Positions 265 to 20,646 of a stretch of 23,987 bases of DNA are shown in pieces. Positions within the stretch are counted from its first letter, which is position 1, and each line of letters starts with the position of its first letter. Below the pieces are notes generated by a model. The model saw nothing but the letters and a program-made list of their open reading frames with translations, searched no databases and was not told the origin of the DNA. The translations under genes and the position numbers were made by a program. The DNA lies in the IMG/VR virus record IMGVR_UViG_3300027608_003751, positions 1-23,987 of that record; one strand, 5' to 3'. Source of the DNA: a virus.

Positions 265-292
265 CTTATATTTTACTCAGACTAAGTGTCAA
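265..292 (-). promoter_or_regulatory. Sigma70-like promoter TTGACA-16-TATAAG with spacer palindrome
   Basis: On the minus strand, a perfect -35 TTGACA (292-287) is followed after 16 bases by TATAAG (270-265), 19 bases before the ATG of the leftmost gene. The -35 overlaps the TGA stop of the DUF932 gene. An imperfect 13-bp palindrome (ACTCAGACTAAGT, 275-287, 10 of 13 positions symmetric) fills the spacer and touches the -35, so it could be an operator. This promoter is unlike the TAGACATCTG class found further right. Confidence 0.7.
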
Positions 293-1314
293 GCCAGCGA
301 AAGAATAATTTCCTGAGCTTTAATCTTTCTCAAAGTGACCCATGAGTTGTTATCCATTGACGCCATTGCTCGTTCTTTTGGGGCAGCATCTCTGAAGTGG
401 TCGAGATATTCCACGATGGCGTTATATGTAGACCACCCATTAAAACCAAAGCCGCCGCCATTTTTATCATTTGCGTAAACACCTCTAACTAAAGACAGAG
501 TGTTCTCTCTATTTTTCTTTTGTCTGTCAGTCTCACCCGTGGCCGCCGGGAATACTCCATTAAGAACTTTTGCGAGGCTCTGAGAGTGTGGAGCAACCGG
601 GATTGATAATAGTTTTTCTGCTGTTTCTCGAAACGATTTCGCCCAGTCAGTAGAGAACTCCAAGACCTTTTGTGCTTCTTCCATTGCTATGTCGGCGTTA
701 CGAGTGTGCCGCGCCGTGAATACTCTGTTCGCTGACTTAATTCCGGCCATGACTGTATTTTTACAAACCGCCCTGACGCTGGTATTAGCAAAAGTAATCG
801 GAGTACGCCCGTTATGTCCGTTTCGTACTAAGAGATATCTCTCTATCTTGTCATTGATACCTGTTGGGTCGATAATCAGTTGCCCCAAATCGATTGATGA
901 GAAGAACTCTCGCCCACCATCAAGAACGCCGCAAGTATCTATGATGGCTTCACCCTTACTTGCCCCCACAACTGCTAAGGCTCTTTCTAGACACTCAATA
1001 TTCTGTTGGACTACATAGCGAGTCCCTACGGTAGAGAGCCCATCAAAGGTGCCATCCGGATTCACCCGTACAGTGGCACGACTGTCATCAATAAGGATGG
1101 CTTTGCCGTCCGGATTACGCATTGGTTCGCCGGAATCATCACAGACTGCCACCCGTGTAGTTACAACATCAAAGTCAGCCTGCGCAGCTCTGAGCATCTC
1201 TGGGGCTGTCTGGAGCCCCGACATCCGAACCCCCAATTTGTGCCAAGGGACTTCTCTGTCAGCAAAAGCCATACGAGCAGTGCCGTCTTTGTTAATTTCT
1301 AACCCGTGAGCCAT
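289..1314 (-). CDS. DUF932 / phage-plasmid-like protein
   Basis: The 341-residue product starts MAHGLEINKDGTARMAFADREVPWHKLGV. A start with 'MAH', followed by a 'PWHxLG' motif, is the signature of the phage/plasmid-like DUF932 family (TIGR03299), and the length is normal for that family. I chose ATG 1314-1312 rather than the in-frame ATG 45 bases upstream because GAGAGG lies 9 bases before it and because family members begin here. The extra upstream residues would also run through a palindrome at 1336-1355. DUF932 proteins are common on phages and mobile elements, and their biochemical role is not established. A relation to recombination or replication has been suggested only by context. The C-terminus (WSTYNAIVEYLDHFRD) is family-like. 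Confidence 0.85.
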   Translation of the reverse strand: MAHGLEINKDGTARMAFADREVPWHKLGVRMSGLQTAPEMLRAAQADFDVVTTRVAVCDDSGEPMRNPDGKAILIDDSRATVRVNPDGTFDGLSTVGTRYVVQQNIECLERALAVVGASKGEAIIDTCGVLDGGREFFSSIDLGQLIIDPTGINDKIERYLLVRNGHNGRTPITFANTSVRAVCKNTVMAGIKSANRVFTARHTRNADIAMEEAQKVLEFSTDWAKSFRETAEKLLSIPVAPHSQSLAKVLNGVFPAATGETDRQKKNRENTLSLVRGVYANDKNGGGFGFNGWSTYNAIVEYLDHFRDAAPKERAMASMDNNSWVTLRKIKAQEIILSLA

Positions 1315-1335
1315 TGTGTCTTGCCTCTCTATGTG

Positions 1336-1355
1336 TTCAGATAAATCTATCTGAA
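1336..1355. promoter_or_regulatory. Perfect 8+8 bp palindrome, GATA-N4-TATC core (site a)
   Basis: TTCAGATAAATCTATCTGAA is an 8-bp inverted repeat with a 4-base centre, 22-41 bases upstream of the DUF932 start. On the minus strand its core reads GATAGATTTATC, identical to the core of the palindrome at 5442-5455. It may be a DNA operator. In the transcript it would be an 8-bp hairpin just before the Shine-Dalgarno, so post-transcriptional control is also possible. Confidence 0.6.
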
Positions 1356-1395
1356 ACAAGCATAGCCCTGAGTGGCTGGCTACGGCGTAAACAGT

Positions 1396-1665
1396 TTATT
1401 TGCTTGGCATAAATACAGTCGTGCCGATTACTAAATCAGTTCCATAAGTTTTCATAGCCGTATCGGTTGCCTTCTGGATATTGCCAGAACACTTCTGTTC
1501 AGCAATCCCCCAGAGAGTGTCGCCCTCTACTACGAGATGACCAGAGTTATCGCACGAGAACTCCTCTTTAGTGATGGATATCGTTGTCAATCCCAGAGCA
1601 ACACCCAGAACCAGTATGACCAGAAACTGAATTGTTTTTCTATTGGCAATAAGGTTGCTGTTCAT
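1396..1665 (-). CDS. Small membrane-anchored LysM-domain protein
   Basis: The 89-residue protein has a short basic N-terminus (MNSNLIANRKTIQ), one hydrophobic helix at about residues 13-32 (FLVILVLGVALGLTTISI), and a C-terminal LysM-like module with the typical 'VEGDTLWGIAEQKC' start. LysM domains bind peptidoglycan N-acetylglucosamine, so the protein is expected to sit in the cytoplasmic membrane with the LysM part in the cell wall. The layout resembles small cell-division inhibitors of the YneA type and small phage LysM proteins; which role applies here is unknown. The start ATG shares one base with the upstream stop (TAATG), implying translational coupling. The two Cys residues flanking the LysM core could form a disulfide. 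Confidence 0.75.
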   Translation of the reverse strand: MNSNLIANRKTIQFLVILVLGVALGLTTISITKEEFSCDNSGHLVVEGDTLWGIAEQKCSGNIQKATDTAMKTYGTDLVIGTTVFMPSK

Positions 1666-1964
1666 TACGCACCTACCTTTTGGACTTCAGAGAAACCGAC
1701 ATTTTCGCAACGATAGACCTTGTCGTCAATCTCAATCTCATCACCGACACTCAAGGCAGTGTGAGTGCGATTAGGTGAGAGCAACGGCTCAACAATATCC
1801 CAGACCCAACCCGTGTAGAGATTAAGGTCAGCGAAAACCTTTTCACAAAATGCGATGTGGTCTTCTGGCAAAATCGTAACGCTGTTAAACGAAACAGACG
1901 AAACCACTCGCCCACTTTCCAAATAATCACCGAACGCCTTAAGAGTAATAGTTACCTTGCTCAT
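1665..1964 (-). CDS. Hypothetical protein, 99 aa
   Basis: First gene of the operon driven by the promoter at 1993-2022. The ATG at 1964 follows the shared leader GAAAGGGGATACATA. The product alternates beta-strand-like stretches (VTITLKAFGDYL, VVSSVSFNSVTIL) with a C-terminal segment (LSVGDEIEIDDKVYRCENVGF) that resembles a small beta-barrel. I recognise no family. Its stop overlaps the start of the LysM protein gene by one base, so the two are probably made together. Confidence 0.75.
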   Translation of the reverse strand: MSKVTITLKAFGDYLESGRVVSSVSFNSVTILPEDHIAFCEKVFADLNLYTGWVWDIVEPLLSPNRTHTALSVGDEIEIDDKVYRCENVGFSEVQKVGA

Positions 1965-1992
1965 TATGTATCCCCTTTCTTGAGATGAATAA

Positions 1993-2022
1993 ATTGTATC
2001 TGACCCCTACAACAAATGTCCA
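1993..2022 (-). promoter_or_regulatory. TAGACATCTG-class promoter, copy 1
   Basis: Minus strand -35 TGGACA (2022-2017), 18-base spacer, -10 TACAAT (1998-1993). The box beyond the -35 (TGGACATTTG) differs by two bases from the other copies. It is followed by the near-invariant leader CATCTCAAGAAAGGGGATAC and the ATG at 1964. Confidence 0.75.
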
Positions 2023-2051
2023 GTCAGTGCTGTGTAGATAGCCCCGCCCCA

Positions 2052-2312
2052 TTACCTTCCAAGTTTGATTCGGACTTCCTGATGCTTTGGGCAATCATCG
2101 TATGGATTTTCCTCGTGAGAATTATCCTCACACCCACACCAGCCAAATATCGCTATTTGTTTTTCGTGAGTGAGAGTGCTTGCTTCGTCATAAGAATACG
2201 AGCGCTGTGATGGGTCGCTTGCGCAATCATTACATAGTTGCCCGTCAGCGTGTGGACAGAATCCCCAGCGCGCCACAAACCCGTCAAGGCTTTCGTCAAA
2301 AGTTGTATTCAT
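2052..2312 (-). CDS. Small Cys-rich hypothetical protein
   Basis: The 86-residue protein contains CPH, CNDC, CGC and CPKH groups (six cysteines plus several histidines), which could bind one or two zinc ions. It is rich in acidic residues. No known family is recognised. The ATG follows GGAGAGGAGAAC, a strong Shine-Dalgarno, and lies three bases after the upstream stop. It is the last gene of the four-gene operon transcribed from the promoter at 2994-3023, and the next promoter (1993-2022) lies just beyond it. Confidence 0.7.
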   Translation of the reverse strand: MNTTFDESLDGFVARWGFCPHADGQLCNDCASDPSQRSYSYDEASTLTHEKQIAIFGWCGCEDNSHEENPYDDCPKHQEVRIKLGR

Positions 2313-2315
2313 TAT

Positions 2316-2507
2316 TTAGTTCTCCTCTCCAGTAGTCCAAGCCAAAACTTCGTGTGCTATTGACGAGACATCAAGACCGTAGTAGTCAATGATGAGTTGG
2401 TTAGCCGTAGTCTCTGCTGTCTCTTCATCGGGCGCTTCCACATTTACGGTCATCACAAAATAATCAGCAACGAACTGAACTGTGTAGTATTTTGTTTTTA
2501 TTTTCAT
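2316..2507 (-). CDS. Hypothetical protein, 63 aa
   Basis: The product starts MKIKTKYYTVQFVADYFVMTVNVEAPDEETA and looks like a small alpha/beta fold with two amphipathic strands. An in-frame start 36 bases upstream exists inside the preceding gene. I chose the ATG at 2507 because it forms a TAATG overlap with the upstream stop and has GAGG before it, the arrangement seen across this operon. No family recognised. Confidence 0.7.
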   Translation of the reverse strand: MKIKTKYYTVQFVADYFVMTVNVEAPDEETAETTANQLIIDYYGLDVSSIAHEVLAWTTGEEN

Positions 2508-2752
2508 TACTCTGCCTCGCTTTTCGCTAATTTCTTTTTCCAATTCTTAGCGCAACTGTGGCAATATGGAATTGGTTTGAGTTTTTGTCCTCTGTCCTCA
2601 AATATCCACTCACCCATCGGCGCACCACTTCGCTTACTCATATCTTCAACGAGTTGCCCAATCGTGTCATAAACATAAATTCCACGATTATCGCAAGTAT
2701 GACATTCTGCTCGCCAACCAAAACCAAAAAGAACAGGCTCTTTCTTAATCAT
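2507..2752 (-). CDS. Small zinc-ribbon-like hypothetical protein
   Basis: The 81-residue protein carries two CxxC knuckles (CHTC near residue 17 and CHSC near residue 64) separated by a helical stretch (TIGQLVEDMSKR). This is a typical four-Cys zinc-ribbon arrangement. The C-terminus is very basic (NWKKKLAKSEAE), so nucleic acid or protein binding is plausible. The ATG directly abuts the upstream TAA, and the stop overlaps the next start, so it is translated as part of the operon. Confidence 0.72.
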   Translation of the reverse strand: MIKKEPVLFGFGWRAECHTCDNRGIYVYDTIGQLVEDMSKRSGAPMGEWIFEDRGQKLKPIPYCHSCAKNWKKKLAKSEAE

Positions 2753-2965
2753 TTACAGCCCCAGCGCGTCGCACGCATCTTTTGTCATCTTGCGACTAGC
2801 GTCAATCACATCACCAAGCAAACTAACTTGCTGTTGTCTTGCTTCTTTTGTTGTGACAAGCCCACGCCGAGTTTGTTCAGCGAGTTTGCCTAACTGATTA
2901 ACTAACTCCAGCAATCCATCTTGAGCATCGCGTAACTCTTGCACCACTTTAGTTTCTGTGTTCAT
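2753..2965 (-). CDS. Hypothetical helical protein, 70 aa
   Basis: First gene of its operon. An open frame reaches 16 codons further upstream, but those codons cross the promoter at 2994-3023, and the ATG at 2965 directly follows the shared leader GAAAGGGGATACACA. The product (MNTETKVVQELRDAQDGLLE...) is almost entirely heptad-like helix, consistent with a short coiled coil (LLELVNQLGKLAEQTRRGLVTTKEARQQQ). No family recognised. Confidence 0.72.
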   Translation of the reverse strand: MNTETKVVQELRDAQDGLLELVNQLGKLAEQTRRGLVTTKEARQQQVSLLGDVIDASRKMTKDACDALGL

Positions 2966-2993
2966 TGTGTATCCCCTTTCTTGAGATGGGTCA

Positions 2994-3023
2994 ATACTAG
3001 GTCGCCTATACAACAGATGTCTA
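2994..3023 (-). promoter_or_regulatory. TAGACATCTG-class promoter, copy 2
   Basis: Minus strand TAGACA (3023-3018) with the conserved TCTG extension, 18-base spacer, -10 TAGTAT (2999-2994). The leader CATCTCAAGAAAGGGGATAC leads to the ATG at 2965. A 13-bp perfect hairpin (3031-3071) begins eight bases upstream of the -35. Confidence 0.75.
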
Positions 3024-3030
3024 GCCAGTT

Positions 3031-3168
3031 ATTTAACACCGATAAGGTCGCGGGGCTCATCGGTGTTAAATCTCTGCTTGCGTTTCAGAGAATCAGTGTG
3101 GGGCTCGGCAGGTGAAAGGGGGTAAGACACCGAGCCCCACGATATGTCTCAGTCAGTCAAGACTGAGA
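3031..3168. other. Cluster of four perfect hairpins, candidate structured RNA or termination region
   Basis: Four consecutive perfect inverted repeats fill this gap. Arms are 3031-3043/3059-3071 (13 bp), 3071-3076/3086-3091 (6 bp), 3098-3108/3130-3140 (11 bp, GC-rich) and 3147-3154/3161-3168 (8 bp, 6-base loop). No stem is followed by a clear T-run on either strand, so none is a canonical intrinsic terminator. The loop of the first hairpin contains GGGGCTC (3052-3058), which is complementary to GAGCCCC (3132-3138) in the third stem. A pseudoknot or an alternative fold is therefore possible. The strand of any RNA is unknown. Leftward read-through from the gene at 3175 would enter it. Confidence 0.55.
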
Positions 3169-3174
3169 GCGAAC

Positions 3175-3381
3175 TTAATTGAGTAGCCAATCTAGGGTGC
3201 TATTCAGATTGACAAATATAAACCAAAGCAAAAGAATTACCGAAACAAATAATTGAGGGGTAATCTTTTTTGTTCTTATGAATATCTTTATATTCTTAAG
3301 CGCCCACCAGATAAGAACTACCCATAGCGATATGGCGAATACAAAAACTCCGATAATAAAAATTGTCCAGTTATCAATCAT
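3175..3381 (-). CDS. Small two-helix membrane protein
   Basis: The 68-residue protein has two strong transmembrane segments, about residues 6-28 (TIFIIGVFVFAISLWVVLIWW) and 44-60 (LFVSVILLLWFIFVNL), joined by a basic loop (KNIKIFIRTKKITPQ). The basic loop suggests that it faces the cytoplasm. Size and topology would fit a class II holin or another small phage membrane protein, but nothing specific proves that, and the lysozyme-like gene is more than 5 kb away. The ATG overlaps the upstream gene's end by 8 bases. Four hairpins follow its stop. Confidence 0.7.
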   Translation of the reverse strand: MIDNWTIFIIGVFVFAISLWVVLIWWALKNIKIFIRTKKITPQLFVSVILLLWFIFVNLNSTLDWLLN

Positions 3382-3823
3382 TTAAGTCTCCATTAAATTC
3401 AGTAGGGTCTTCTTTATCAAAGAACCAGTCATCAGAATTAAAGCGATTCTTTTTGGGTGTTCGCAGTCTGATGACCGAGAATCGTAATCTCAGGTTTCGT
3501 GGTTGAGCCTCTATCCATTTACAAGCCTCAGCGCCGTTAGCAAAAACTCCATAGTGCCTATCACTACCTGATAGCAAGAGAATTACGGGAGTCGTGAATT
3601 CTTGAGTGATAAAGTCTCGGCGTTTATTTTGTTCGCTATCGCTTTGTTCTTTGCGAATCACTATCTCTCTTTTGACTTGAGAGATATCTTTTTCGTTTTG
3701 TTGCTGAGAGAGTTCTATATCTACTAGGTATTCATCAAGTTCCTCATCAGTCATCATAGAGAGAAAGACCTCAAAAGAATCTCTGATATTTATTGTTGGG
3801 TCAGTCTTTTTTTCTGATATCAC
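3374..3823 (-). CDS. Hypothetical protein with central coiled coil, GTG start
   Basis: The 149-residue protein starts at GTG 3823-3821, whose bases overlap the upstream TGA in a GTGA four-base overlap. Residues 20-75 are charged and helical (MMTDEELDEYLVDIELSQQQ onward), and the C-terminal half has an alpha/beta look with YGVFANGAEACKWIEAQPRN and a final acidic tail. The 'YGVFANGAEAcKWIE' stretch resembles small phage proteins of unknown function. I assign no function. Confidence 0.7.
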   Translation of the reverse strand: MISEKKTDPTINIRDSFEVFLSMMTDEELDEYLVDIELSQQQNEKDISQVKREIVIRKEQSDSEQNKRRDFITQEFTTPVILLLSGSDRHYGVFANGAEACKWIEAQPRNLRLRFSVIRLRTPKKNRFNSDDWFFDKEDPTEFNGDLND

Positions 3824-3987
3824 TTTGACTTCCTTGACGGGTGGGCAACAACTGATGAGACATTAAGTAGTGAGCCTTTTTCAAGTAGTCCTCTGACAAG
3901 TTGTTCAGTAGTCCACAAATTTTCTAAGCCATCTTTGTTTTTGTTTTGCGAAACAATAATTGTAAATGTCTCTAATTCTCCACTCAC
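3820..3987 (-). CDS. Small hypothetical protein, 55 aa, GTG start
   Basis: This short gene begins at GTG 3987-3985, about eight bases after AAAAAGGGGGAT, a strong Shine-Dalgarno, with an in-frame TAG two codons upstream that fixes the start. The product begins MSGELETFTIIVSQNKNKDG and ends with a basic SRKSK. Its TGA stop overlaps the next GTG start by four bases (GTGA). It is the first gene of the operon driven by the promoter at 4036-4064. No family recognised, but context and coding signals make it real. Confidence 0.65.
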   Translation of the reverse strand: MSGELETFTIIVSQNKNKDGLENLWTTEQLVRGLLEKGSLLNVSSVVAHPSRKSK

Positions 3988-4035
3988 TGACTATCCCCCT
4001 TTTTAGTTTTGTTGGTTGCTTCTTGAATTATGTCA

Positions 4036-4064
4036 ATCATATCGGTTAGTTCTACAGATGTCTA
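4036..4064 (-). promoter_or_regulatory. TAGACATCTG-class promoter, copy 3
   Basis: Minus strand TAGACA (4064-4059) plus TCTG, 17-base spacer, -10 TATGAT (4041-4036). Its leader is longer than and different from the other copies, but still ends in AAAAAGGGGGAT before the GTG at 3987. Confidence 0.75.
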
Positions 4065-4072
4065 GTCGGTGA

Positions 4073-4092
4073 TACCCGTAAGACACCCATAG
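4073..4092. repeat. Two 9-bp direct repeats, period 11, upstream of promoter copy 3
   Basis: The plus strand reads TACCCGTAA (4073-4081) and CACCCATAG (4084-4092), an 11-base period. The same pair occurs as perfect copies at 4838-4857 upstream of another promoter of the same class. Here the first repeat begins 8 bases from the -35, versus 18 bases there. Candidate activator site. Confidence 0.5.
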
Positions 4093-4100
4093 CCTACTGC

Positions 4101-4256
4101 CCTTTTTTCATTTCGGACTTTGGAAAATTTGATTTGGAAAAATATCTAACCCCTTTTTTTCATTTCGGACTTTGGAAAATTTGATTTGAGAAATTATGTA
4201 ATGCCTTTTTTTCATTTTGGACTTTGGAAAATTTTAGTTGGAAAAATATCTAACCG
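4101..4256. repeat. Three tandem 52-bp AT-rich repeats
   Basis: Three head-to-tail units of exactly 52 bp (4101-4152, 4153-4204, 4205-4256) share TTTTTTCATTTCGGACTTTG followed by GAAAATTTGATTTGGAAAAA with a few substitutions. Each unit contains the box TTGGAAAA once or twice. No open frame spans them and no unique spacers occur, so this is not CRISPR. Iterons of a replication origin, a protein-binding array or bent DNA are possible. Confidence 0.75.
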
Positions 4257-4327
4257 CATTTTTTTAGTTCGGGCTTTTTCTGTAATCGTATTTTTTTAGT
4301 TCGGGCTTTTTCTGTAATCGTATTTTT
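4256..4327. repeat. Two and a quarter tandem 32-bp repeats
   Basis: A second array abuts the 52-bp units. The 32-bp unit (4256-4287, 4288-4319, partial 4320-4327) begins with GCATTTTTTTAGTTCGGGCT or GTATTTTTTTAGTTCGGGCT. Its T-run plus TTCGGGCTTT core resembles the TTTCGGACTTT core of the 52-bp unit, suggesting common origin. Confidence 0.75.
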
Positions 4328-4347
4328 TGGGGTTAGTAGTTGCTCGT

Positions 4348-4533
4348 TCACTTCCACTCCTCTACTGCTAAGCCACACTCAGCGCAACTATGCTCAAGCA
4401 ATTCTGCTATGTGCCAAGTTGCGATAGGGTGCTTCTCGTTGCCTTCGGGGTCAGTGTCAGATAGTGAGTAGCCGTGTTCATAACAATAAATGTCAGCGAA
4501 CCACGAGTAGCCTACAGTGAATTTATCTCTCAC
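4348..4533 (-). CDS. Small Cys/His-containing hypothetical protein, GTG start
   Basis: The 61-residue protein starts at GTG 4533-4531, overlapping the upstream TGA by four bases (GTGA). It contains CYEHG near residue 17 and HSCAEC near residue 48, which together could bind one zinc. The rest is rich in aromatic and acidic residues. It is the second and last gene of the operon from the promoter at 4790-4819 and is followed by the tandem-repeat array. No family recognised. Confidence 0.68.
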   Translation of the reverse strand: MRDKFTVGYSWFADIYCYEHGYSLSDTDPEGNEKHPIATWHIAELLEHSCAECGLAVEEWK

Positions 4534-4760
4534 GATTGAAACTCCTTTTCAAGTTCAGTCATAATCTTCAGGTGGTCTTGGTATCGTGCTTCAATAAAGG
4601 CAATCGTGAGTGGCTCTAGATACTTCCAGATAGACGCTTCTAGTTCAGTGATGATGTTTTCTAGAGCGACACTTTTGTTGAACCACCTAAGTTGCTTAAA
4701 GAAGTTTAGGTCTTCGCTTTGCTCTATGTAGTTATCAAATGTAGTTTCTTTGATGTTCAT
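4530..4760 (-). CDS. Hypothetical helical protein, 76 aa
   Basis: First gene behind promoter copy 4. The ATG at 4760 follows the shared leader GAAAGGGGATACATA. The product is acidic and predicted to be mostly alpha-helical (NYIEQSEDLNFFKQL, ALENIITELEASIWKYLE, HLKIMTELEKEF). No family recognised. It is translationally coupled through GTGA to the Cys/His protein. Confidence 0.7.
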   Translation of the reverse strand: MNIKETTFDNYIEQSEDLNFFKQLRWFNKSVALENIITELEASIWKYLEPLTIAFIEARYQDHLKIMTELEKEFQS

Positions 4761-4789
4761 TATGTATCCCCTTTCATTGAGATGATTTA

Positions 4790-4819
4790 ACTATAGTAAG
4801 GCACTACTACAGATGTCTA
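4790..4819 (-). promoter_or_regulatory. TAGACATCTG-class promoter, copy 4
   Basis: Minus strand TAGACA (4819-4814) plus TCTG, 18-base spacer, -10 TATAGT (4795-4790). Leader CATCTCAATGAAAGGGGATA leads to the ATG at 4760. Confidence 0.78.
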
Positions 4820-4837
4820 GTTGTGTATGTATGTATT

Positions 4838-4857
4838 CACCCGTAGCACACCCGTAG
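4838..4857. repeat. Two perfect CACCCGTAG repeats, period 11
   Basis: CACCCGTAG at 4838-4846 and 4849-4857 lies 18 bases upstream of the -35 of promoter copy 4. The spacing of one helical turn, and the recurrence upstream of promoter copy 3, suggest a dimeric activator site. Confidence 0.5.
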
Positions 4858-4888
4858 CACTTGCGAACTACTGATGTGCCACGAGGGC

Positions 4889-4924
4889 GATGATGACGAT
4901 GATGATGTGTCGCGATGATGATGA
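4889..4924. repeat. GATGAT/GATGAC trinucleotide-like run
   Basis: A low-complexity stretch of GATGAT and GATGAC blocks interrupted by GTGTCGC lies immediately after the stop of the gene at 4925-5233. No gene is visible in 4858-4924. Confidence 0.6.
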
Positions 4925-5233
4925 CTATTTCTTTTGCCACTCAACTTTGTTCGCAACTTTTATATTTCGTTGAAGAAGGATTGATGACTGACTCAACTTG
5001 TTATGTTGTAATTTCCATATTGTCTCACCTTGTCTGAATCCTTCATCAGTTTTGATAGCACCAAGCAAGCAAGAGTAGGAAGGCATATAAAAGAAACCTT
5101 CAACAACTGCGATTGGACTATACGACTTCGCAATTACGAAATCATAACTAATGTCATTGTGAGTAATCGGACTAGAGAGTTCGTAAATGAATCCTAATCC
5201 ATCATTTGTCTTGCGTATTTTTTTGGCTAACAT
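4925..5233 (-). CDS. Hypothetical protein, 102 aa
   Basis: A monocistronic gene behind promoter copy 5. The ATG at 5233 follows GAAAGGGGATAAAAAATA. The product has a basic N-terminus (MLAKKIRKTNDG) and then a run of strand-like segments (LGFIYELSSPIT, YDFVIAKSYSPIAVVEGFFY). Its C-terminus is basic (ANKVEWQKK). No family recognised. Confidence 0.7.
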   Translation of the reverse strand: MLAKKIRKTNDGLGFIYELSSPITHNDISYDFVIAKSYSPIAVVEGFFYMPSYSCLLGAIKTDEGFRQGETIWKLQHNKLSQSSILLQRNIKVANKVEWQKK

Positions 5234-5265
5234 TATTTTTTATCCCCTTTCATTGAGATAACTAA

Positions 5266-5295
5266 ATCATAGTGAGACACTTCATCAGATGTCTA
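5266..5295 (-). promoter_or_regulatory. TAGACATCTG-class promoter, copy 5
   Basis: Minus strand TAGACA (5295-5290) plus TCTG, 18-base spacer, -10 TATGAT (5271-5266). Leader ATCTCAATGAAAGGGGATA leads to the ATG at 5233. The upstream CACCCGTAG repeats are absent here. Confidence 0.78.
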
Positions 5296-5340: not shown

Positions 5341-5455
5341 GTCGAATCGAATCGACATCGGGGTCAGCCCCGCCAAACTTTTTGGCGCACCCCAGTGGTG
5401 GTGGGGGTGCGTATTCCAAATTTTTTTGGTCGCCAAACTCCGGATAGATTTATCC
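5341..5455. other. Palindrome-dense noncoding stretch
   Basis: Six perfect short inverted repeats follow one another. Arms are 5341-5345/5352-5356 (GTCGA), 5359-5363/5368-5372 (CGGGG), 5371-5377/5381-5387 (CGCCAAA), 5386-5393/5404-5411 (CGCACCCC), 5416-5420/5425-5429 (CCAAA) and 5442-5446/5451-5455 (GGATA). The stretch is locally much richer in GC than its flanks. A 65-codon TTG-start frame on the minus strand crosses it, but has no ribosome site. Between 5296 and 5607 I see no convincing gene. A structured RNA, a terminator region protecting the leftward promoter, or an origin or attachment region are all possible. Confidence 0.55.
5442..5455. promoter_or_regulatory. GATA-N4-TATC palindrome (site b)
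   Basis: GGATAGATTTATCC is a 5+5 bp inverted repeat with centre GATT. Its 12-base core equals the minus-strand core of the palindrome at 1336-1355. It lies about 140 bp upstream of the winged-helix gene's -10. Confidence 0.5.
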
Positions 5456-5607: not shown

Positions 5608-5919
5608 ATGACTTCTATTGTAAACATGAAAACCCCCGTTGCATACGGTTCGTCGACGTATGTTGTGTTGTGCTATTTGAAGATGAAGAGATGTCCAGTG
5701 TCTGTAGATGACTACCGTAAGTTCTGCTTACATAAATCTAAGCCATCAGACATAGTTCGTTCTTTTGACGTATTGGTTCGTCACAGCTTTGCTAAATACA
5801 CCCTAGATAACAAAATCATTATTACAAGCCTTGGTATCGAATACCTTTATCTAGTCGCCCGAAAAGTGGAATCAGGCTGTACCGGCACTAAAAATAAAGA
5901 AGACGCTATTTTGGGATAA
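5608..5919 (+). CDS. Winged-helix DNA-binding protein candidate
   Basis: This 103-residue protein is the only rightward gene within about 9 kb of leftward genes. The secondary-structure pattern fits a winged helix: helix 1 about residues 17-27 (TYVVLCYLKMK), helix 2 about 32-41 (VDDYRKFCLH), recognition helix about 45-58 (KPSDIVRSFDVLVR), then a beta wing (KYTLDNKIIITSLGIEYL). The tail is charged (VESGCTGTKNKEDAILG). It is probably a transcription regulator. It has its own TATAAT promoter, would be translated from a nearly leaderless mRNA, and is bracketed by copies of a GATAnATnTATC palindrome that could be its own operator. This is the layout of an independently expressed accessory gene ('moron') or a phage repressor. 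The regulatory role is inferred. Confidence 0.7.
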   Translation: MTSIVNMKTPVAYGSSTYVVLCYLKMKRCPVSVDDYRKFCLHKSKPSDIVRSFDVLVRHSFAKYTLDNKIIITSLGIEYLYLVARKVESGCTGTKNKEDAILG

Positions 5920-8681: not shown

Positions 8682-9257
8682 TTATGGTTTCTTTTTAGGG
8701 CACCTTGTTTTATCCCAAGTGCATGGGTCCCATGGGCCCCATCCTGAGTATTGATAAAGCAAATAGCCTGCCTTGAGGTTTATTAATGGGTCTAATAGTG
8801 GTTCCTGGGTGCAGATGTCTAAATCTAAACAAACCCTTGCCCATTTGTTTCTTGATAAATCATAGTTAACGCCGTTAATTTGAAGCAGTCCTGTGTCGGA
8901 GCGATGGTTCCACTCAGAGACACCTGTGATGTTGCAGTTCTTGTCGACGATATCCCCACCCTTGCGATTTGGACAACCACCGCTTTCTCTCAGAATTATT
9001 TCCTTCAGTTTTTCATGGGTCTTTTCAGGCCATCCAGCCTGACTAGCCAACTGCGACAACCAATCAACCTGACCATGAGTAAAGGTGATTTTTGAGGTAA
9101 AACTGTAATCTAATCTTTCAATATTTTTGTGGGTAATTTGATTGCTCTCGTCATTTTTGCCTTCTAAATATTCAGGGGCATTTGCTTGAGATGTAGGGGT
9201 TTGAATCCCTAAGACAAAAAAGAGTAAAGAAGTAACCCAACCTGCAAAGATTCTCAA
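8682..9257 (-). CDS. Secreted lysozyme/lytic transglycosylase-like protein
   Basis: The start is TTG 9257-9255 with AGGAGTCAAAA upstream. Residues 1-27 form a signal peptide (hydrophobic WVTSLLFFVLGIQT, likely cut after ANA). The mature part has the SLT/lysozyme-like fold signature: 'EIILRESGG' with probable catalytic Glu91, 'SDTGLLQIN' (121-128) and 'LLDPLINLKAGYLLYQYSGWGPWDPCTW'. It would cleave the glycan strands of peptidoglycan outside the membrane. Six Cys (95, 108, 143, 149, 179, 186) suggest disulfides, fitting an exported enzyme. Possible roles are a secreted endolysin, wall remodelling during infection, or a virion-associated hydrolase. It has its own near-consensus promoter (9334-9362), so it may be expressed separately from its neighbours. 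Confidence 0.85.
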   Translation of the reverse strand: MRIFAGWVTSLLFFVLGIQTPTSQANAPEYLEGKNDESNQITHKNIERLDYSFTSKITFTHGQVDWLSQLASQAGWPEKTHEKLKEIILRESGGCPNRKGGDIVDKNCNITGVSEWNHRSDTGLLQINGVNYDLSRNKWARVCLDLDICTQEPLLDPLINLKAGYLLYQYSGWGPWDPCTWDKTRCPKKKP

Positions 9258-11271: not shown

Positions 11272-14200
11272 TCACCGTTTAACGGTCTCATCTGCGCGAC
11301 GAAGGTTTTTAATATCTACATGTAGTTCGTCTTCGGCATAGGTTTGAAGATTCCCTAAGAATCCTTCACTGTGTGTTAGTACATCAGAGCGACTAATTCT
11401 GTATTCAACCACATCACCCTTGAAGGTGCTTAAGCCGCCTTTTCGTGTAGTTACAGAAACAACGCCCGTATTTGGGCGACCACCCGCACCTGCTGTACGC
11501 CAAACCGAAAACTCTTCAGGGAATCCTGCTCTTTCTAAAGACTCCTGTGCCTGTCTCTGAATTTCTGAGGAAACAGTACGAGCATTTTTCATTGTTACTG
11601 CCATGTTGGTTGGTTTCATGTTGTCAAGCATGGAACCGGGTTCGTCGTAGCCCAATGCAACCTCATGTACTACTTTGGCAAAATCAGGAGTTCCACTTTC
11701 TCCAACTTCTTTGAGAATTTTCTGTTCTGCTTTTGTGAGCTTAATGGCGTCTGGCAAAATTTTTCTACCAGAACTTAATCTTGAATTGTTGGCTCTTCTG
11801 TTGGCTCTATTAGTTTTACCAGAACTCAGTTTTGAATCTATTCCTGTCTTGAGTCCTCTTTGTAGTCGGGGTAGTCGGGGTATTCCTGGTTGTTTTTGTG
11901 ATTGTGCCGCTTGTCTTTCTCTCCATTGTTTAATCTGCTGTCGTGATAAATCAAATTTTTCAATTGCGCCTTCCATGCTCCCACCGTTTATGAAAAATTC
12001 TCTAAGTTCCTCACTAATTTGAGCAAGGAAAAATTTTTTCTCAATTCTTTCTCTTTGCAATTTTGATAATTCCTCATCTTCATTTACAATTTTGCGGATT
12101 ATTTTAATGTCTTTTTTTAGTGTTTTTCCAATCTGGGTGATGTTCAGTCCATTTTTAAATAGTTCACGAACCTGTGGTATAAAAATCGACCAATAACGCT
12201 GACTTCCGTCCCTTCTCGCTATTAGTTTTGGTTTTGTTTCCTCGTTGGCAAGCAACACGTCGGCTACTGCCGAGATATCCATTTTGGTGAGCCTCGCAAC
12301 CTCGGTGATTCTTAAACCGTCATTAAATAGTTTAATTATTTTTTCTTCTTTTTTTTGTCTTCTAGTCTTTTCTCTAGTTAGTCTTAATTTTCTTGCTTTA
12401 GCAGATTCTGAAATATTTTCAAGTTTTATCAGTTTTTCTCTTGAGATATTGAATTTTTCCATAATTTCTTCAAACGGCATATCGTTTTTGATGGCTTCAA
12501 TAATTCTCTGTTGTCGAGGAGACTTCGGATTGTATTTCCTGTATGGCAAATTATATTGCCGTGCCAAAAATAAGACGGCTTGAATAGTGACATTGTGTTT
12601 TTTTGCAATATAAGAAAGTGTTTTTCTTTTATCTTTATAGTCTTCTACGATAGACAGTTGAACTTCTAACGGGTAGTCTGCTTCTTTAAACCGACCGACC
12701 TTTGGTATCTTTGACTTCACATACACCCGTCTCTTTGCAGGTGTTTGTAGATTTGTGTCTGTATTCGGGTCTCGGGTCGCCGCCAAGTTTTCAATTGGTA
12801 AAAACCGAGGTTCGGTGTCAGTGTTTTTGCCAGAACTTAATCTTGAATTATTGGCTCTTCTGTTGGCTCTGTTGGTTTTACCAGACGACAGTTTCGGTTT
12901 ATTTTCTGTTTTCAACGTTCCATCTGCGTTGTGCGTGTTGGTTTCCTTGCCTTTATTTCTTGCTACGCGCCTAAGGCGACTCTCCTCTAAGTACTCAGGA
13001 GATAAGAGTCTTTCCTTGGATGCTTTTTCTCGTTCTGTTCTTCTAGCCATCTCTGCAGGACTAATCTTTGAAAATTCGCGATATGCGGCTTGGTTTTCTT
13101 TTTCTTCTTTACTAATTTCTTCGTCATCGTCGTAGTCGTCATCTACTTCAGAAACAATAATTGGTTTTTCTTTAAATTTCCCATTTTTATCCCATGGTAA
13201 TTTAGACTCACTACCATCTCCCTTTTTTACTGCGGCTTCATATGAGTCAATTCGGCGTTGAAGTCTTTGCTTGCCCATCTCGCTGAGTTCAGGGGTATTC
13301 ATTCCAGAACTTAATCTTGAACGTCTAAGAGTCGCTTTATTAAGGGCATTCCATTGTCTATCTGAGAGCTTTCCATTCCTTCTGAATTGCTCAACAACAC
13401 TTTTTGAGAAATCATCGGTTCTTTGAGATGCGATAGCTATGATTTCGCGTTTTTCTTCATCAGAAAGATTTATTCGTGGCTGGCTTCCAGATGAAAGTTT
13501 CAGTTTACCGTTTTCTATGGGGACGCCCTGCTTTATTAGCGCATCGATAAGTTCTTCTGCGCCCATAGAATTAAATTCTTCATCAGGCAATCTTGCTGTT
13601 TCTATATAATAGTCGGCATCACTAATTAAGTTGCTGAGTTCAGAATGATTTAGTTTTATCTCCGTACGGAACCTGCCTCGAACCTCAGAGCCATCAATCT
13701 CACTGTCTAGCCTAGACAAGTGGTCAAACCAAAAACGATTGGTTACCTGAACAAGTATTCTATTGTTTGGCTTTTCCTCGGAAAGAGATAAAAGTTCTTT
13801 TTCGTCAACCTTAAAATTCTTTTTGATTAGGGGGTATTTTTTTGTGTTTGAATCAGGTTTTGCTTTAACGGGATTAATGTCTGCCGCAAGAAACTCTTTA
13901 AATTGTTCCTCACTTAAAACAAACCCATCACTGACTGACCCTAACTTTTCTGTCTGAATTTGTCTATCCAACAACCAATCAATAGCTGCAGATATTGTTT
14001 TTTCAGAAAACGTGCGCACCTCATCGTTTTCTAGACGACGAGGTTTCCCGGTTGTGCTATCTATTACCCTCATTCGTACAAATCGTTTACCCGATGGTAC
14101 GTCTCTGAGTCGGGCTTCGCCCGTAAACCCAATTTCCATATTTTTGTATGTCTGAAACTGTATGTATTTATTACTCCCATTCCATATGTCCTTTATGGGC

Positions 14201-17200
14201 TCGGTTGCGCCAGAGCTAAGACTTGGGCCACCACTTTCTTCATCAGAAAGATTCATGCGTGGCTGGCTTCCAGATGAGAGTTTTGATTTATCTCTATTTT
14301 CGGGAAGTTTACGTATATACCTGTTTATAAAATTTGCGCCCTCTTCGCTATATCGCTGCCTGCGTAGGTCGACGTTATATCGAGAAACTGCTTCATCTAC
14401 AAGTTTTGTTGCTATACCCTTACCTTGATGTTTGGGGTCAATAAAGATGTTGATATTCCCGCGTCTTTCTACAATTCGTGGGTCATCTGGGTCTACAAGA
14501 GCAAATGGATAATGATTTAAGATGCCAATAACTTTCCCTGAATCATCTCTATAAAGCAGGCAATCAACCCATGTTGAATCATCAACTACGCCTTTAAAAT
14601 ATGAAATTCCCGGCGGACCATCGTCTGGGTACTGTTTGGCTTGAGACCGAAATGGCCACACAGGGCCATCTAATTCGTTTTTTCTATCTTTCCAGACTTT
14701 TCCTTTATACGTAGGAGCGCCATCGTATTTGCCAGAAGATAATTTTGAGTGATAACCAAATTCAAGAAGTGAATTACCTTCATTAAATAATTCTTTTGCT
14801 TTTACTTTCTTAGTCACTATTTCGTAGTTATCTTTTAACCAACTATCTCCGTGTATTTTTGCATATTCGGGGAGAATCGTTACCCAGTCGCCTTCTTTAA
14901 TGTTTTTGCCCCTTGGGACCGCCCTATATATGGTTAATTCAGAGTCTGGTTTATTGCGGAGTTTTCTAAAAATAGCAACAGCTTTTTGAGCTAAATCCGG
15001 GAATGCGCCCCCATAAAGGTTCGCTCCATTTGGACCATAGATATCTTCTGGATATATGGCGCCATTAGCCAGGTTATGTAGGGGTGCCCCACTTGACGCA
15101 TCAGGAGATTCGTGGCGGCCCTTGTACGAAGTGGTGCCACTAGATAGTCTGCCAAAACCAAATTCTTTTTTCTCCACTTCTTTTGGAACTGTGGATTTTT
15201 TAGGAGACGTTTCGGAAATCCAATTATTTTTTTCTTGTTCAAAATCAATAATTTTTTGTTGATGGTTTTCTAATTTATCTTTGATTTTTTGGTCGCGCCA
15301 ATTTTTATCAAAAATATCGCTGCTCCAATTTTTTTCAATTGCTTTATCAATAATTTTTGACATCAACTCTGATGTGGCTGCCGCATCAGCGTCTGCTGTA
15401 TGGTGTTTTTTCCCGAGGTCTATGTTGAGATATTCGGTCAAAGCCTTTAGGCTACTTGACGGAATTTTTTCACCAGTTTTCCCGTCAGTAGTCCAAGGTG
15501 CGTCTTGATTTTCTTTTGTCCATTTAGGAATTACTAAATCGGATACAACTTTCGTATCTACCCAGCCCTTTGGTCTCCACTCGATGCCTGATGATGTCAG
15601 TGCATCTTCTAGTACCGTTTTATCAAATACTGCATTTTGAACTCCAAAAATTGCATCAGGACCCACAAATTCAATTAATTTTCTATGCGCATCAGCTATC
15701 GATGTTTGAGATGACAGCCATTCGTCGGTAAGCGGTTCTCCATCTTTGTTTTTAAGATTTTTTCTCGACCAATCCCCAAGCTCTTCTCCCGGGTTCATAA
15801 AAATATTTAGTCGACCAATCTCCTTGCCGCCTTTGGTCTTTGTTACACCAAACTGCACTGGAGCGCCATTACCGGACGATTGTCGAAATTCGTCAGAAAC
15901 CAATCCAGTAGTTTCGTAGTCAAAGAAATTTATTTCTAAATTATCGTAAACTTCTTTGAATTCTTTCCAGTTTTTTACATCCGCAAACACGTCTTCAGCG
16001 CCATCAAGGAATGGACCATAGCTAGGGTGTCTTGGGTACGTTGGTCTTTCGGGTTTCTCAGCTTTTGAACCTGATGACAATTTTGTTAACTTACGATTTT
16101 TCCTACCCGAACTTAAAATATTTTTTTCTCTTCTTATGTTCGCCTTACTGTCTTTCCACGCATCAACGCCTTTATCTCCGGCCAAGATTGTTTCTATATC
16201 TTGTCTTAATTTTTTATTTATTGCTTTAAGTTTTAGTTGCTCATTAGGGTGCATGTAAGCAAGCATCCCTTCTGCAAACATTTCTTTTCTGCTCACGTGC
16301 CCATAAGACGTAATCGTCCTTGGCTCGTTTGGTGAATCTTCTAGTGGTTTTTTTGTTGAATGAAGATTCATGTTTCCATTATCGGAATTGTACTCAAGTG
16401 CAATTTTGATTTTTTCGGTAAAATCTGAATCTTGAGGATTAATCAAAGATTTAGGCGACCGTTTTTTATTTTCAGAACTTTCAATATTTGCTAAAAGCAT
16501 CTCGGAGTGATACCAGTGAGCCCATTCGTGTAAAATAGTTCCGGAGATGCTTCTGTCTATTACGGTGTCGGAGTCAGATGGTAATTTAGATGTTTGAAAG
16601 CTGCTTGAAATTGGTTCATTCGTTTGCCATGATTTTTTATCAACCACATTGATTGGATTAAAAGTCACCATCTCAAAATCAAGATGATTGCTCGCAGCAA
16701 ATTGTGGCTCCCCAGGTGCATCTGGGTACATTTTTTTGAGCGCATCATACAATGGCTTTACCGCATCGCGATTGTTGTATGTTTCCGCACTTTTTCTGGT
16801 CATTACCGTATATGTTGGTGAGCCGTAATTTCTTACGGCCCAAGAAAAAATAGGCGATTCGTCAAGAGCAGTTTTGAGTGCTTGTTTTAATTGCTTAGTT
16901 GAACTTTCCGAGTAATCAATTTCCAACCAAGGCTTTCCAACCCCCCATCTAGATTCAAGATATTTTTCTATAGTCTCTTTGTCGACACCGAATCCATCGG
17001 CCAGCATTTGAGAATAAGTCTGATATGAGTCGGGGACGAGGATGTTTGAAATCTGCTCATTGCTTAATCCATCCAACCATTTGGGGCCGTTTTTTTTACT
17101 AATTAATTTGCCATCCAAAGAACTTTCGCCATATTTAATTTTCTGGCGAATTTTTTTTCTTTCTTTTATTTTTTGATTATTCAAATTTATTTTTGGTCTA

Positions 17201-17520
17201 GCTCTTTGGGTTTCAATAATTGGTCTATCTCGCCCACCGCTCAGCCCGACCCATACAGGGTTGGTTGTGCCTTCGTCTGCCCAGCCATCTCTGTCAATGT
17301 CGCGACGATTTCCTGTTGGTCTCTTGTATCCGCGCACACCACCAGTGGGTATGTCAATTCTTCCAGAACCAATCGTTCTTCTGTTTTTACCAATATTTGG
17401 CCTGCTCGCCAGGCCTCTACCAATTCTTTTACCGAGTCTAGATGCCACGCTTTTTATCTGCTTGCTATGTCTTTCGTCTCGTGGCGAGTAGTCAAGCTTT
17501 ATGATAATTGGTTCGAACAT
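11272..17520 (-). CDS. Giant polyvalent-type protein: peptidase, exonuclease, two ART-like, GNAT, five HTH, punctuated by LSSG
   Basis: The ATG at 17520 follows AGGTGTACCACT; the product has 2082 residues. In order: a basic N-terminus and Ca-loop-like DIDRDGWADEG (74-84); a zincin metallopeptidase with HEWAH (331-335) and a downstream EMFAEG (413-418); a DEDDh exonuclease (about 500-730: FDYE 533-536, NAVFD 629-633, H707, D712); an ADP-ribosyltransferase-like domain (about 815-925: IYRAVPRG with R866, EFGY 920-923); a GNAT acetyltransferase (about 945-1070: HQGKGIA 1031-1037); an unknown domain (1105-1341); a helical module (1346-1402); an acidic linker; five HTH units (about 1616-1868); and a second ART-like end (R2008, SVTT 2022-2025, EDE 2063-2065). 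LSSG recurs at 469, 481, 792, 927, 1081, 1101, 1342, 1403, 1544, 1561, 1898 and 1915. It resembles phage polyvalent proteins, which are thought to enter the host with the DNA. Confidence 0.85.
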   Translation of the reverse strand: MFEPIIIKLDYSPRDERHSKQIKSVASRLGKRIGRGLASRPNIGKNRRTIGSGRIDIPTGGVRGYKRPTGNRRDIDRDGWADEGTTNPVWVGLSGGRDRPIIETQRARPKINLNNQKIKERKKIRQKIKYGESSLDGKLISKKNGPKWLDGLSNEQISNILVPDSYQTYSQMLADGFGVDKETIEKYLESRWGVGKPWLEIDYSESSTKQLKQALKTALDESPIFSWAVRNYGSPTYTVMTRKSAETYNNRDAVKPLYDALKKMYPDAPGEPQFAASNHLDFEMVTFNPINVVDKKSWQTNEPISSSFQTSKLPSDSDTVIDRSISGTILHEWAHWYHSEMLLANIESSENKKRSPKSLINPQDSDFTEKIKIALEYNSDNGNMNLHSTKKPLEDSPNEPRTITSYGHVSRKEMFAEGMLAYMHPNEQLKLKAINKKLRQDIETILAGDKGVDAWKDSKANIRREKNILSSGRKNRKLTKLSSGSKAEKPERPTYPRHPSYGPFLDGAEDVFADVKNWKEFKEVYDNLEINFFDYETTGLVSDEFRQSSGNGAPVQFGVTKTKGGKEIGRLNIFMNPGEELGDWSRKNLKNKDGEPLTDEWLSSQTSIADAHRKLIEFVGPDAIFGVQNAVFDKTVLEDALTSSGIEWRPKGWVDTKVVSDLVIPKWTKENQDAPWTTDGKTGEKIPSSSLKALTEYLNIDLGKKHHTADADAAATSELMSKIIDKAIEKNWSSDIFDKNWRDQKIKDKLENHQQKIIDFEQEKNNWISETSPKKSTVPKEVEKKEFGFGRLSSGTTSYKGRHESPDASSGAPLHNLANGAIYPEDIYGPNGANLYGGAFPDLAQKAVAIFRKLRNKPDSELTIYRAVPRGKNIKEGDWVTILPEYAKIHGDSWLKDNYEIVTKKVKAKELFNEGNSLLEFGYHSKLSSGKYDGAPTYKGKVWKDRKNELDGPVWPFRSQAKQYPDDGPPGISYFKGVVDDSTWVDCLLYRDDSGKVIGILNHYPFALVDPDDPRIVERRGNINIFIDPKHQGKGIATKLVDEAVSRYNVDLRRQRYSEEGANFINRYIRKLPENRDKSKLSSGSQPRMNLSDEESGGPSLSSGATEPIKDIWNGSNKYIQFQTYKNMEIGFTGEARLRDVPSGKRFVRMRVIDSTTGKPRRLENDEVRTFSEKTISAAIDWLLDRQIQTEKLGSVSDGFVLSEEQFKEFLAADINPVKAKPDSNTKKYPLIKKNFKVDEKELLSLSEEKPNNRILVQVTNRFWFDHLSRLDSEIDGSEVRGRFRTEIKLNHSELSNLISDADYYIETARLPDEEFNSMGAEELIDALIKQGVPIENGKLKLSSGSQPRINLSDEEKREIIAIASQRTDDFSKSVVEQFRRNGKLSDRQWNALNKATLRRSRLSSGMNTPELSEMGKQRLQRRIDSYEAAVKKGDGSESKLPWDKNGKFKEKPIIVSEVDDDYDDDEEISKEEKENQAAYREFSKISPAEMARRTEREKASKERLLSPEYLEESRLRRVARNKGKETNTHNADGTLKTENKPKLSSGKTNRANRRANNSRLSSGKNTDTEPRFLPIENLAATRDPNTDTNLQTPAKRRVYVKSKIPKVGRFKEADYPLEVQLSIVEDYKDKRKTLSYIAKKHNVTIQAVLFLARQYNLPYRKYNPKSPRQQRIIEAIKNDMPFEEIMEKFNISREKLIKLENISESAKARKLRLTREKTRRQKKEEKIIKLFNDGLRITEVARLTKMDISAVADVLLANEETKPKLIARRDGSQRYWSIFIPQVRELFKNGLNITQIGKTLKKDIKIIRKIVNEDEELSKLQRERIEKKFFLAQISEELREFFINGGSMEGAIEKFDLSRQQIKQWRERQAAQSQKQPGIPRLPRLQRGLKTGIDSKLSSGKTNRANRRANNSRLSSGRKILPDAIKLTKAEQKILKEVGESGTPDFAKVVHEVALGYDEPGSMLDNMKPTNMAVTMKNARTVSSEIQRQAQESLERAGFPEEFSVWRTAGAGGRPNTGVVSVTTRKGGLSTFKGDVVEYRISRSDVLTHSEGFLGNLQTYAEDELHVDIKNLRRADETVKR
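11767..11829 (-). repeat. Internal repeat R1, copy 2 (KTNRANRRANNSR between two LSSG)
   Basis: Codons 1898-1918 of the giant gene encode LSSG-KTNRANRRANNSR-LSSG, identical at the protein level and nearly identical in DNA to 12829-12891. The two copies bracket the five-HTH segment exactly. Confidence 0.85.
12829..12891 (-). repeat. Internal repeat R1, copy 1
   Basis: Codons 1544-1564 encode the same 21 residues as 11767-11829, with only a few silent differences. It is about 1.06 kb away in direct orientation. Confidence 0.85.
13453..13500 (-). repeat. Internal repeat R2, copy 2 (KLSSGSQPRINLSDEE)
   Basis: Codons 1341-1356 repeat codons 1080-1095 with one change (Met to Ile). DNA is about 90 percent identical by eye. 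The pair brackets the unknown domain at residues 1105-1341. Confidence 0.85.
14236..14283 (-). repeat. Internal repeat R2, copy 1 (KLSSGSQPRMNLSDEE)
   Basis: Codons 1080-1095, directly after the GNAT domain. It is a direct repeat of 13453-13500. Confidence 0.85.
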
Positions 17521-17582: not shown

Positions 17583-17924
17583 TTATTGAGCAACAGGGAA
17601 TCTTTGTCCACACTCAAGACATATTGTTGCCCATGGGTAATATCTCACTTGGTGGTTGGGATGTGGACAGTCCAGGACGTTTGCGGCTTCCTTATTTAGG
17701 GCATCCCTAATCCACGAAGAAAGAGTGACCCCAACTTTATTAGATGCGTTTTTCCACCTATCTCGGTCGTGTTCGGTTGCGCGAATAAGGACTTGCTTGT
17801 CGGCCGGTGCGTCGTCGGATTTTTGCATTGGGGAAACGGACATGGAGGTGTTTTCTGCGACATGGTTCATTGCGGAAATCAAATTTGAGTCTTTGTTTTC
17901 TATATTGTCTTGTTCGTTATTCAT
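17583..17924 (-). CDS. Ribbon-helix-helix-like protein with C-terminal zinc knuckle
   Basis: The start ATG 17924 overlaps the upstream gene's end by eight bases (ATGAATAA) and follows AGGAACAGGAAG. A longer frame upstream lacks this site. The 113-residue product has a disordered N-terminus, then 'VLIRATEHDRDRWKNASNKVGVTLSSWIRDALNKEA', the strand-helix-helix pattern of RHH (Arc/MobC-like) DNA-binding proteins, and then 'CPHP...ICLECGQRF', a probable Cys/His zinc site. RHH proteins bind operators or relaxosome-type sites as dimers. Its place directly upstream of the giant gene suggests it could regulate or accompany it; this is inferred. The 62-base gap to the giant gene contains no clear promoter. 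Confidence 0.7.
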   Translation of the reverse strand: MNNEQDNIENKDSNLISAMNHVAENTSMSVSPMQKSDDAPADKQVLIRATEHDRDRWKNASNKVGVTLSSWIRDALNKEAANVLDCPHPNHQVRYYPWATICLECGQRFPVAQ

Positions 17925-20250: not shown

Positions 20251-20646
20251 TTACTGAACCTCAGACAATGCGGTTGGTCTCTTAAGACTCTTGGGTTGAC
20301 GAATTAATGCTTCTCCGTTGGCATTTCTATTACCCAATCCAGGTATAAATATTTTTCCATCCCGAGTAAGCCGAACATTGGTTTGAACACGTACTGCTGC
20401 ACGTTGCAGTTCAGTTTTGCCACCCCATATGCCCCATGGTTCGTGTCTTAATGAATATTGCAAACATTCTTCACTGACATCGCAGGTTTTGCAAATCGCA
20501 ATTGCTTTTCGTGTTTTTTCTTTTCTTTCGCGAAATTCCTGAACCTTTGCTCCCCTGACGTGATGAGGGAACCATAACTCCGTGGGATGTCCAACACATT
20601 TGCCGTTTTTCGGTGGATTATTAAAAGGTTCTTTGTTATTATCCAT
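20251..20646 (-). CDS. whiB: WhiB-family iron-sulfur transcription regulator
   Basis: The 131-residue protein has the four WhiB cysteines (C17, C52, C55, C61; spacing C-x2-C-x5-C for the last three), expected to hold a [4Fe-4S] cluster, and the GIWGG turn at 72-76 that contacts sigma factor region 4 in WhiB proteins. It carries a basic C-terminus that can bind DNA (RNANGEALIRQPKSLKR). WhiB proteins work with the host's main sigma factor. Phage-encoded ones (for example in mycobacteriophage TM4) act on host genes and phage regulation. The Shine-Dalgarno is AAAGGGAG. It is the gene immediately upstream of the primase-helicase in the long leftward operon. Confidence 0.93.
   Translation of the reverse strand: MDNNKEPFNNPPKNGKCVGHPTELWFPHHVRGAKVQEFRERKEKTRKAIAICKTCDVSEECLQYSLRHEPWGIWGGKTELQRAAVRVQTNVRLTRDGKIFIPGLGNRNANGEALIRQPKSLKRPTALSEVQ

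Follow-up and report, generated by a model that had tools for sequence, protein, structure and literature searches.

The window analyzed here is the whole of a 23,987-base virus sequence (record IMGVR_UViG_3300027608_003751, referred to as G000; G+C 42%), in which a block of mostly small, leftward genes (289..5233, minus strand), with the gene for a DUF932 protein at its end, is served by five copies of a repeated promoter. Each copy carries a conserved box over the -35 region, and the sequence of this box and its replacement between related phages are the subject of this report. Matches to PHROGs are missing for nine of the 10 small block proteins scanned, and from its place and content the block plausibly consists of early genes. 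Elsewhere the window encodes a WhiB-family protein, SSB, and a primase-helicase, and for these marker proteins, including the DUF932 protein, the nearest annotated relatives (about 30-35% identity) come from phages of Arthrobacter and from other actinobacteriophages. Megablast of the window against 50,697 phage records gave no match. Because of the WhiB gene and the actinophage relatives we infer an actinobacterial host, and likeness to Nanopelagicales phages (PMC10202952) leads us to guess at a freshwater one. A 53-kb relative, G001, matches the window at 92-95% over most of its length and has its major head protein towards one end and a small-gene block at the other.

Five promoters and their conservation

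All five sites were located on the minus strand exactly where the first-pass annotation, made from the window's sequence alone, had placed them, against a mean of 0.005 full sites and a maximum of 1 in 1000 order-2 Markov simulations. P2022 has the box TGGACATTTG (2013..2022), within a stretch of family-wide conservation from about 2025 to 2004, a -10 of TACAAT (1993..1998), and a predicted +1 at 1986, from which a 22-nt leader with a Shine-Dalgarno sequence, ATCTCAAGAAAGGGGATACATA (1965..1986), runs to the gene at 1665-1964 (99 aa). The other four share the box TAGACATCTG. In P3023 it occupies 3014..3023 and is followed by TAGTAT (2994..2999), a predicted +1 at 2987, and a 22-nt leader (2966..2987) preceding the gene at 2753-2965 (70 aa); in P4819 (4810..4819) by TATAGT (4790..4795), a predicted +1 at 4783, and a 23-nt leader (4761..4783) preceding the gene at 4530-4760 (76 aa); and in P5295 (5286..5295) by TATGAT (5266..5271), a predicted +1 at 5259, and a 26-nt leader (5234..5259) preceding the gene at 4925-5233 (102 aa). 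P4064 (4055..4064) differs in having a 17-bp spacer before its TATGAT (4036..4041) and in lacking the shared leader; from a predicted +1 near 4029 its leader of about 42 nt carries AAAAAGGGGGATA ahead of the GTG of the gene at 3820-3987. The spacing between TRGACA and the -10 is 18 bp in the remaining four, all of which have the shared leader, and both of these points agree with what had been annotated. The description of the -10 as TATGAT-like was loose: a -10 is present in all five, but only TAnnnT is invariant. Bare boxes at 8812-8821 (minus strand) and 23194-23203 (plus strand) lie within open reading frames (the latter inside a ribonucleotide-reductase-like region), lack the promoter layout, and were taken as chance matches. 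An unbiased 7-mer test on the window alone did not rise above shuffles (14.4 vs 14.6), so the strength of the signal comes from the full motif and from the relatives.

Relatives were gathered by scans of 2.9 million viral contigs, one for the leader and one for the DUF932 protein. The same cassette is present in nine related viral contigs as 54-58 distinct copies: 14 in L136 (12.5 kb), 10 in L127, eight each in L132, L092, and L138, five each in L062, L133, and L135, and three in G001, where the box promoters are confined to the small-gene block at one end. A reversed control pattern gave no matches in these cassette-carrying relatives, and a loose pattern (box plus TATNAT) matched 119 viral stretches, mostly as single chance matches. 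Copies stay at orthologous places and are hardly ever found elsewhere. The site ahead of MSKVTITLKAF (P2022) is orthologous to sites in L132 and L092, P3023 to one in L132, P4064 to sites in L132, L092, and L023, and P4819 and P5295 to sites in L020 and L023; the conservation that the first-pass annotation had proposed to look for in related phages is thus borne out in close relatives. Where orthologous sites differ in the box, as TGGACATTTG does from TAGACATCTG, they do so at degenerate positions.

The anatomy of the promoter was read from 44 distinct copies chosen by the leader only, neither box nor -10 being used in their selection. T-12, A-11, and T-7 are present in 44/44; every one also has a purine in position +1 (ATC or GTC), preceded by a pyrimidine, and because of this fixed TAnnnT, purine +1, and pyrimidine -1, the start point is taken to be the first base of the leader. 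Every copy also shows a SigA-type layout, with TAnnnT at a fixed distance from the start and a -35-like hexamer 17-18 bp above it; by layout the five sites are SigA-type promoters, and use of the start is predicted. The box occurs in 43 of the 44. Its consensus in the 18-bp class, GACTRGACATYTGTTGTANNGG, extends from -39 to -18, and in the 17-bp class, found mainly in L127, the second half of the box is ATACTGGG. The box holds 15.9 bits at -36..-27 and 10.8 at -26..-18, compared with 6.2 in the -10 hexamer; taken together, -36 to -18 holds about 27 bits and the -10 about 6. It is therefore, as annotated, longer and better conserved than the -10; it had been described as reaching four bases past the -35, which it does, although conservation in the family is wider. 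Positions -16, -5, and -3 carry merely about 0.1-0.2 bit, and such free positions interspersed among conserved ones argue for base-specific selection rather than recent duplication. T is the optimum for sigma at the second -35 position (TTGACA), and in box-carrying copies that base is A or G, never T. Many of the -10s are weak (TAGTAT, TATGGT, TAGGCT). In the relatives, 63/64 TRGACATYTG boxes have a correctly spaced -10, the single exception being truncated by a contig end. The leader is a 19-26-nt 5′ end that contains GAAAGGGG, able to pair with the actinobacterial anti-Shine-Dalgarno sequence, and ends at the start codon; a start codon with a Shine-Dalgarno sequence lies a median 22 nt past +1 in 55/58 copies, and two of the three others head a structured RNA.

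None of 396 Actinomycetota genomes carries the box as a promoter class (0-3 matches per genome, as in the reversed control), which rules it out as a host promoter class for this set, outside which the true host may lie. In 257 Gb of cellular DNA the whole cassette was matched 37 times, singly and at scattered places.

Box replacement between related phages

Relatives at 62-75% DUF932 identity lack the window's box and have repeated promoters of their own in the same register, with scores of 23-64 against shuffle maxima of 12-16. The box types are TTRGTTTCTGAYA in L143 and L144; TTNGTATCTGTCCTG in L145 and L146; AGGTTGT..ACTACCGA in L151-L153 and others, where start codons are positioned for leaderless messages; AGGTTGT..ATAACCGA in L150, L166, and L168; ACTTGTYGGGTTGGGTAAG in L149; TGTTATC..TCCACCA in L154; ACTCTTACCCCCC in L167 and L178; and the DnaA-box-like TGTGGATAA in L173. 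At 5438, 8386, and other places in L173, the DnaA-box-like TTATCCACA lies within repeated promoters, some of its palindromes being common to divergent promoters. A further type discerned by eye in L165 did not exceed its own shuffles. The TTRGTTTCTGAYA and TTNGTATCTGTCCTG types have TYTG at -30..-27 in common with the window's box.

Orthologous genes carry the box type of the phage in which they reside. Orthologues of the gene after the L127 promoter at 3742 carry the L143 type in L143 and, in L153 as well as in L159, the leaderless type; those of the gene after the L136 promoter at 3085, in L150 and L166, carry the ATAACCGA type. On this comparison, boxes have been swapped wholesale between related phages. 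In a DUF932 tree the window's box type forms one clade (96/94), and all box labels together require 15 changes vs 23.2 when shuffled, so that box type follows the tree. This pattern suggests that every phage lineage has a private on-switch.

The replacement extends to an RNA. Three box promoters head no gene but an RNA of ~185 nt, which is closed by a 16-bp stem and shows two-sided changes in its inner pairs; most copies also have a U-run. Copies lie at L136 423-614 (+), L136 3130-3317 (-), L127 7861-8049 (+), and L131 250-440 (+). A covariance model trained on four copies also found the RNA in L143-L146 (E 2e-8 or better; e.g., L145 12033-12224 (-) and L143 12063-12255 (-)), where it sits behind those phages' own box types. 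The RNA has no match in Rfam or in annotated phages, and the window, a fragment, does not contain it. It is a new, covariation-supported RNA whose placement has it driven by each phage's own repeated promoter type.

The first-pass annotation had spoken of a new promoter class. This was an overstatement as regards layout, which is already known from repeated phage promoters; the novelty is the box sequence and its turnover. A search of open-licence papers turned up none that deals with repeated promoters of freshwater actinophages.

What may read the box

We favor, at a probability of roughly 0.6, a reading in which host-sigma promoters of the small-gene block are overlaid by an operator that is specific to the lineage and serves a trans-acting factor. 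It builds on what the sequences themselves display: the anatomy, copy number, and conservation of the promoters, their restriction to the block, their absence as a class from actinobacterial genomes, and the replacement of the box. The host housekeeping sigma (SigA/RpoD) would read the sites, contacting the TAnnnT -10 and the TRGACA -35, and transcription would start 7 bases past the -10 at a purine to give a ~22-nt leader with a strong Shine-Dalgarno sequence. The ~27-bit operator, from -39 to -18, would overlie the -35 together with the spacer's first half and be bound by a factor that is most likely phage-encoded and most likely an activator, and the dispersed small genes (with the structured RNA in relatives) would fire together during host takeover. 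Protein binding to the box, activation, the identity of the factor, and early timing are what we infer beyond this. A host sigma is expected because no protein with sigma-70 region 2 (PF04542) was matched in 25 related records (partly fragments), whereas control genomes do match; on the same search, a promoter of a phage-encoded sigma was rejected.

The box had been thought to bind something more than a standard sigma factor, and this still appears the best interpretation: box-carrying copies never have T as the second -35 base, actinobacterial genomes lack the class, and whole box sets are swapped between related phages, all of which favor an additional phage-side factor over sigma alone. Three points weigh against it. 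TRGACA is one base off TTGACA, and sigma alone could suffice; the box-binding factor is itself putative; and the copy at L062 5431 (minus strand), the sole natural box-less promoter, combines the leader with a perfect TATAAT in AT-rich sequence, so the box would not be strictly required.

The sites might instead be very strong host SigA promoters, the extra consensus optimizing polymerase binding with no further factor involved. TRGACA-N17/18-TAnnnT is indeed a near-standard promoter, and T4 early promoters, which have additional consensus too, require no viral factor (PMC2988021). Optimization for sigma is difficult to reconcile with the avoidance of T at the second -35 base, the common weak -10s, and the missing box class in actinobacterial genomes, and a conserved sigma does not demand unrelated boxes in related phages; we regard this explanation as doubtful. 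A second alternative, that the box is the operator of a phage repressor silencing the block for immunity or shutting off early genes late, we consider unlikely. The overlap of the box with the -35 and spacer is the position of a blocking operator, ESAS repeats of mycobacteriophages vary between phage groups (PMC3203893), cluster A repressors bind asymmetric repeated sites (PMC9283540), and promoters of L151 and its kin contain a dyad, GGTTGT...ACTACC. Yet no tyrosine integrase was found in the 25 records (serine integrases were not searched), no HTH_3 repressor exceeded the cut-off in box-carrying records, no cassette-bearing prophage was present among cellular genomes, and close relatives, unlike phages with stoperators, have no boxes outside promoters.

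The first-pass annotation had also raised a WhiB-assisted regulon. On such a reading, a phage WhiB bound to SigA region 4 would define the box. The window does encode a WhiB-family protein (20251..20646, minus strand), and Wbl proteins bind SigA region 4; but relatives without the box, including those with quite different boxes, are just as well supplied with WhiB genes (one to three each), which thus do not track it. WhiB was rejected as the reader of the box on this lack of co-occurrence, and the explanation is very improbable. Least credible of all is that recombination shuffling small genes keeps the repeats alike without regulation, since, although promoter-gene units recur in differing contexts among relatives, conservation is base-specific with free positions in between and is poor upstream of the box.

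A candidate for the factor in the favored reading, by association only, is a 103-aa protein encoded divergently at the head of the block (5608..5919, plus strand). Structure prediction (mean pLDDT 82.6) and fold search (VIA Z up to 11) give it a winged helix of MarR/PadR type, a fold that says nothing on its target. The family is represented in records that carry the box and, by strongly diverged members, in those behind L143, L145, L150, L153, L166, and L179; it also occurs in some phages with ACTACCGA or ATAACCGA boxes, so that its presence alone is no marker of box type. The palindrome GATAAATYTATC, which flanks the 5608-5919 gene, may equally be the target of its product. The palindrome lies at 1340, 5443, and 5915 in the window (with a weaker site at 5546), at 2702 and 2783 in L143, at 3830 and 3912 in L145, and at 2611 and 2996 in L167, where a LexA-like winged helix is encoded between the same palindromes. 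In most relatives it precedes the DUF932 start by about 25-40 nt, and it also lies around small regulator-like genes; it appears operator-like and independent of box type. That each lineage pairs its own diverged regulator with its own box at every dispersed promoter, including that of the orthologous structured RNA, is a tentative extension that we hold to be possible but improbable; if true, co-infecting phages would be unable to cross-activate or cross-silence each other's takeover genes.

Known systems and neighboring features

The closest parallels are the start-associated sequence (SAS) and extended SAS (ESAS) of cluster K mycobacteriophages (TM4, Adephagia, and Pixie; PMC3203893, PMC11373665, PMC12699233). 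In both systems several copies precede small nonstructural actinophage genes, a SigA-like -35/-10 with 17-18 bp spacing is overlaid by an extra conserved element and coupled to a conserved start-associated leader, and the function of both is predicted. In an ESAS, a repeat is superimposed on a SigA-like promoter, and its consensus varies between subclusters (PMC3203893, PMC11373665), which is likewise a point of resemblance; here, however, entire box sequences differ between lineages rather than single positions. The box also appears largely asymmetric, without a clear counterpart of the 17-bp imperfect inverted repeat pair of ESAS: a weak dyad, CTAgACA-TY-TGTtgTAG, can be read in the 18-bp consensus and none in the 17-bp class. 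Cluster K phages, moreover, are mostly temperate. The cluster K SAS, GGGATAGGAGCCC, which lies a few bases from start codons, gave two window matches at 3 mismatches vs 2.85 expected, none of them at the five promoters.

T4 middle promoters, which depend on a MotA box and sigma appropriation, are similarly dispersed in many copies, and their phage box, centred near -30, lies at -35 to -26, 12-13 bp above a sigma -10 (PMC2988021). The register is alike, TRGACATYTG lying at -36..-27 or -35..-26, 13-14 bp above the -10, but the sequences are unrelated, the present box is still -35-like, and its conservation reaches -18. No MotA or AsiA homologue was identified here, the proteins at hand being the candidate winged-helix protein and WhiB. 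T4 early promoters also resemble the present ones as many dispersed host-sigma promoters with an extra consensus that serve takeover genes, but in the present ones this additional conservation is lineage-specific and covers the -35-to-spacer region. With the SAS sequence absent and the activator only a candidate, the promoters are assigned to neither the ESAS/SAS nor the T4 middle system.

Cluster A stoperators are asymmetric and repeated and may overlap the -35. The present box is likewise an asymmetric repeated element over the -35, but no boxes occur outside promoters, and the stoperator consensus GGTGGMTGTCAAG gave nine window matches at ≤3 mismatches vs 7.8 expected, not above chance.

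For phages whose probable hosts are abundant, hard-to-grow actinobacteria, the box and leader allow the promoters of uncharacterized small genes to be predicted to the base, and they serve as a simple key in searches for more phages of this kind. The replacement of whole box sets at orthologous genes offers a testable case of a phage rewiring a dispersed regulon, which was left open for mycobacteriophage ESAS elements.

Other features of the window lie near or beyond the block. Directly upstream of P3023 is a terminator-like inverted repeat with 21-nt arms (3026..3076), and directly upstream of P4064 are T-rich tandem repeats (4095-4320), three of 52 bp and two of 32 bp. A 208-aa helix-turn-helix (HTH) protein (17917-18543) matches a PHROG labeled RNase E and was set aside as having no link to the box. 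A 2082-aa protein (11272-17520, minus strand) has weak exonuclease, GNAT, and several HTH matches, and its counterpart in G001 is 2419 aa long.

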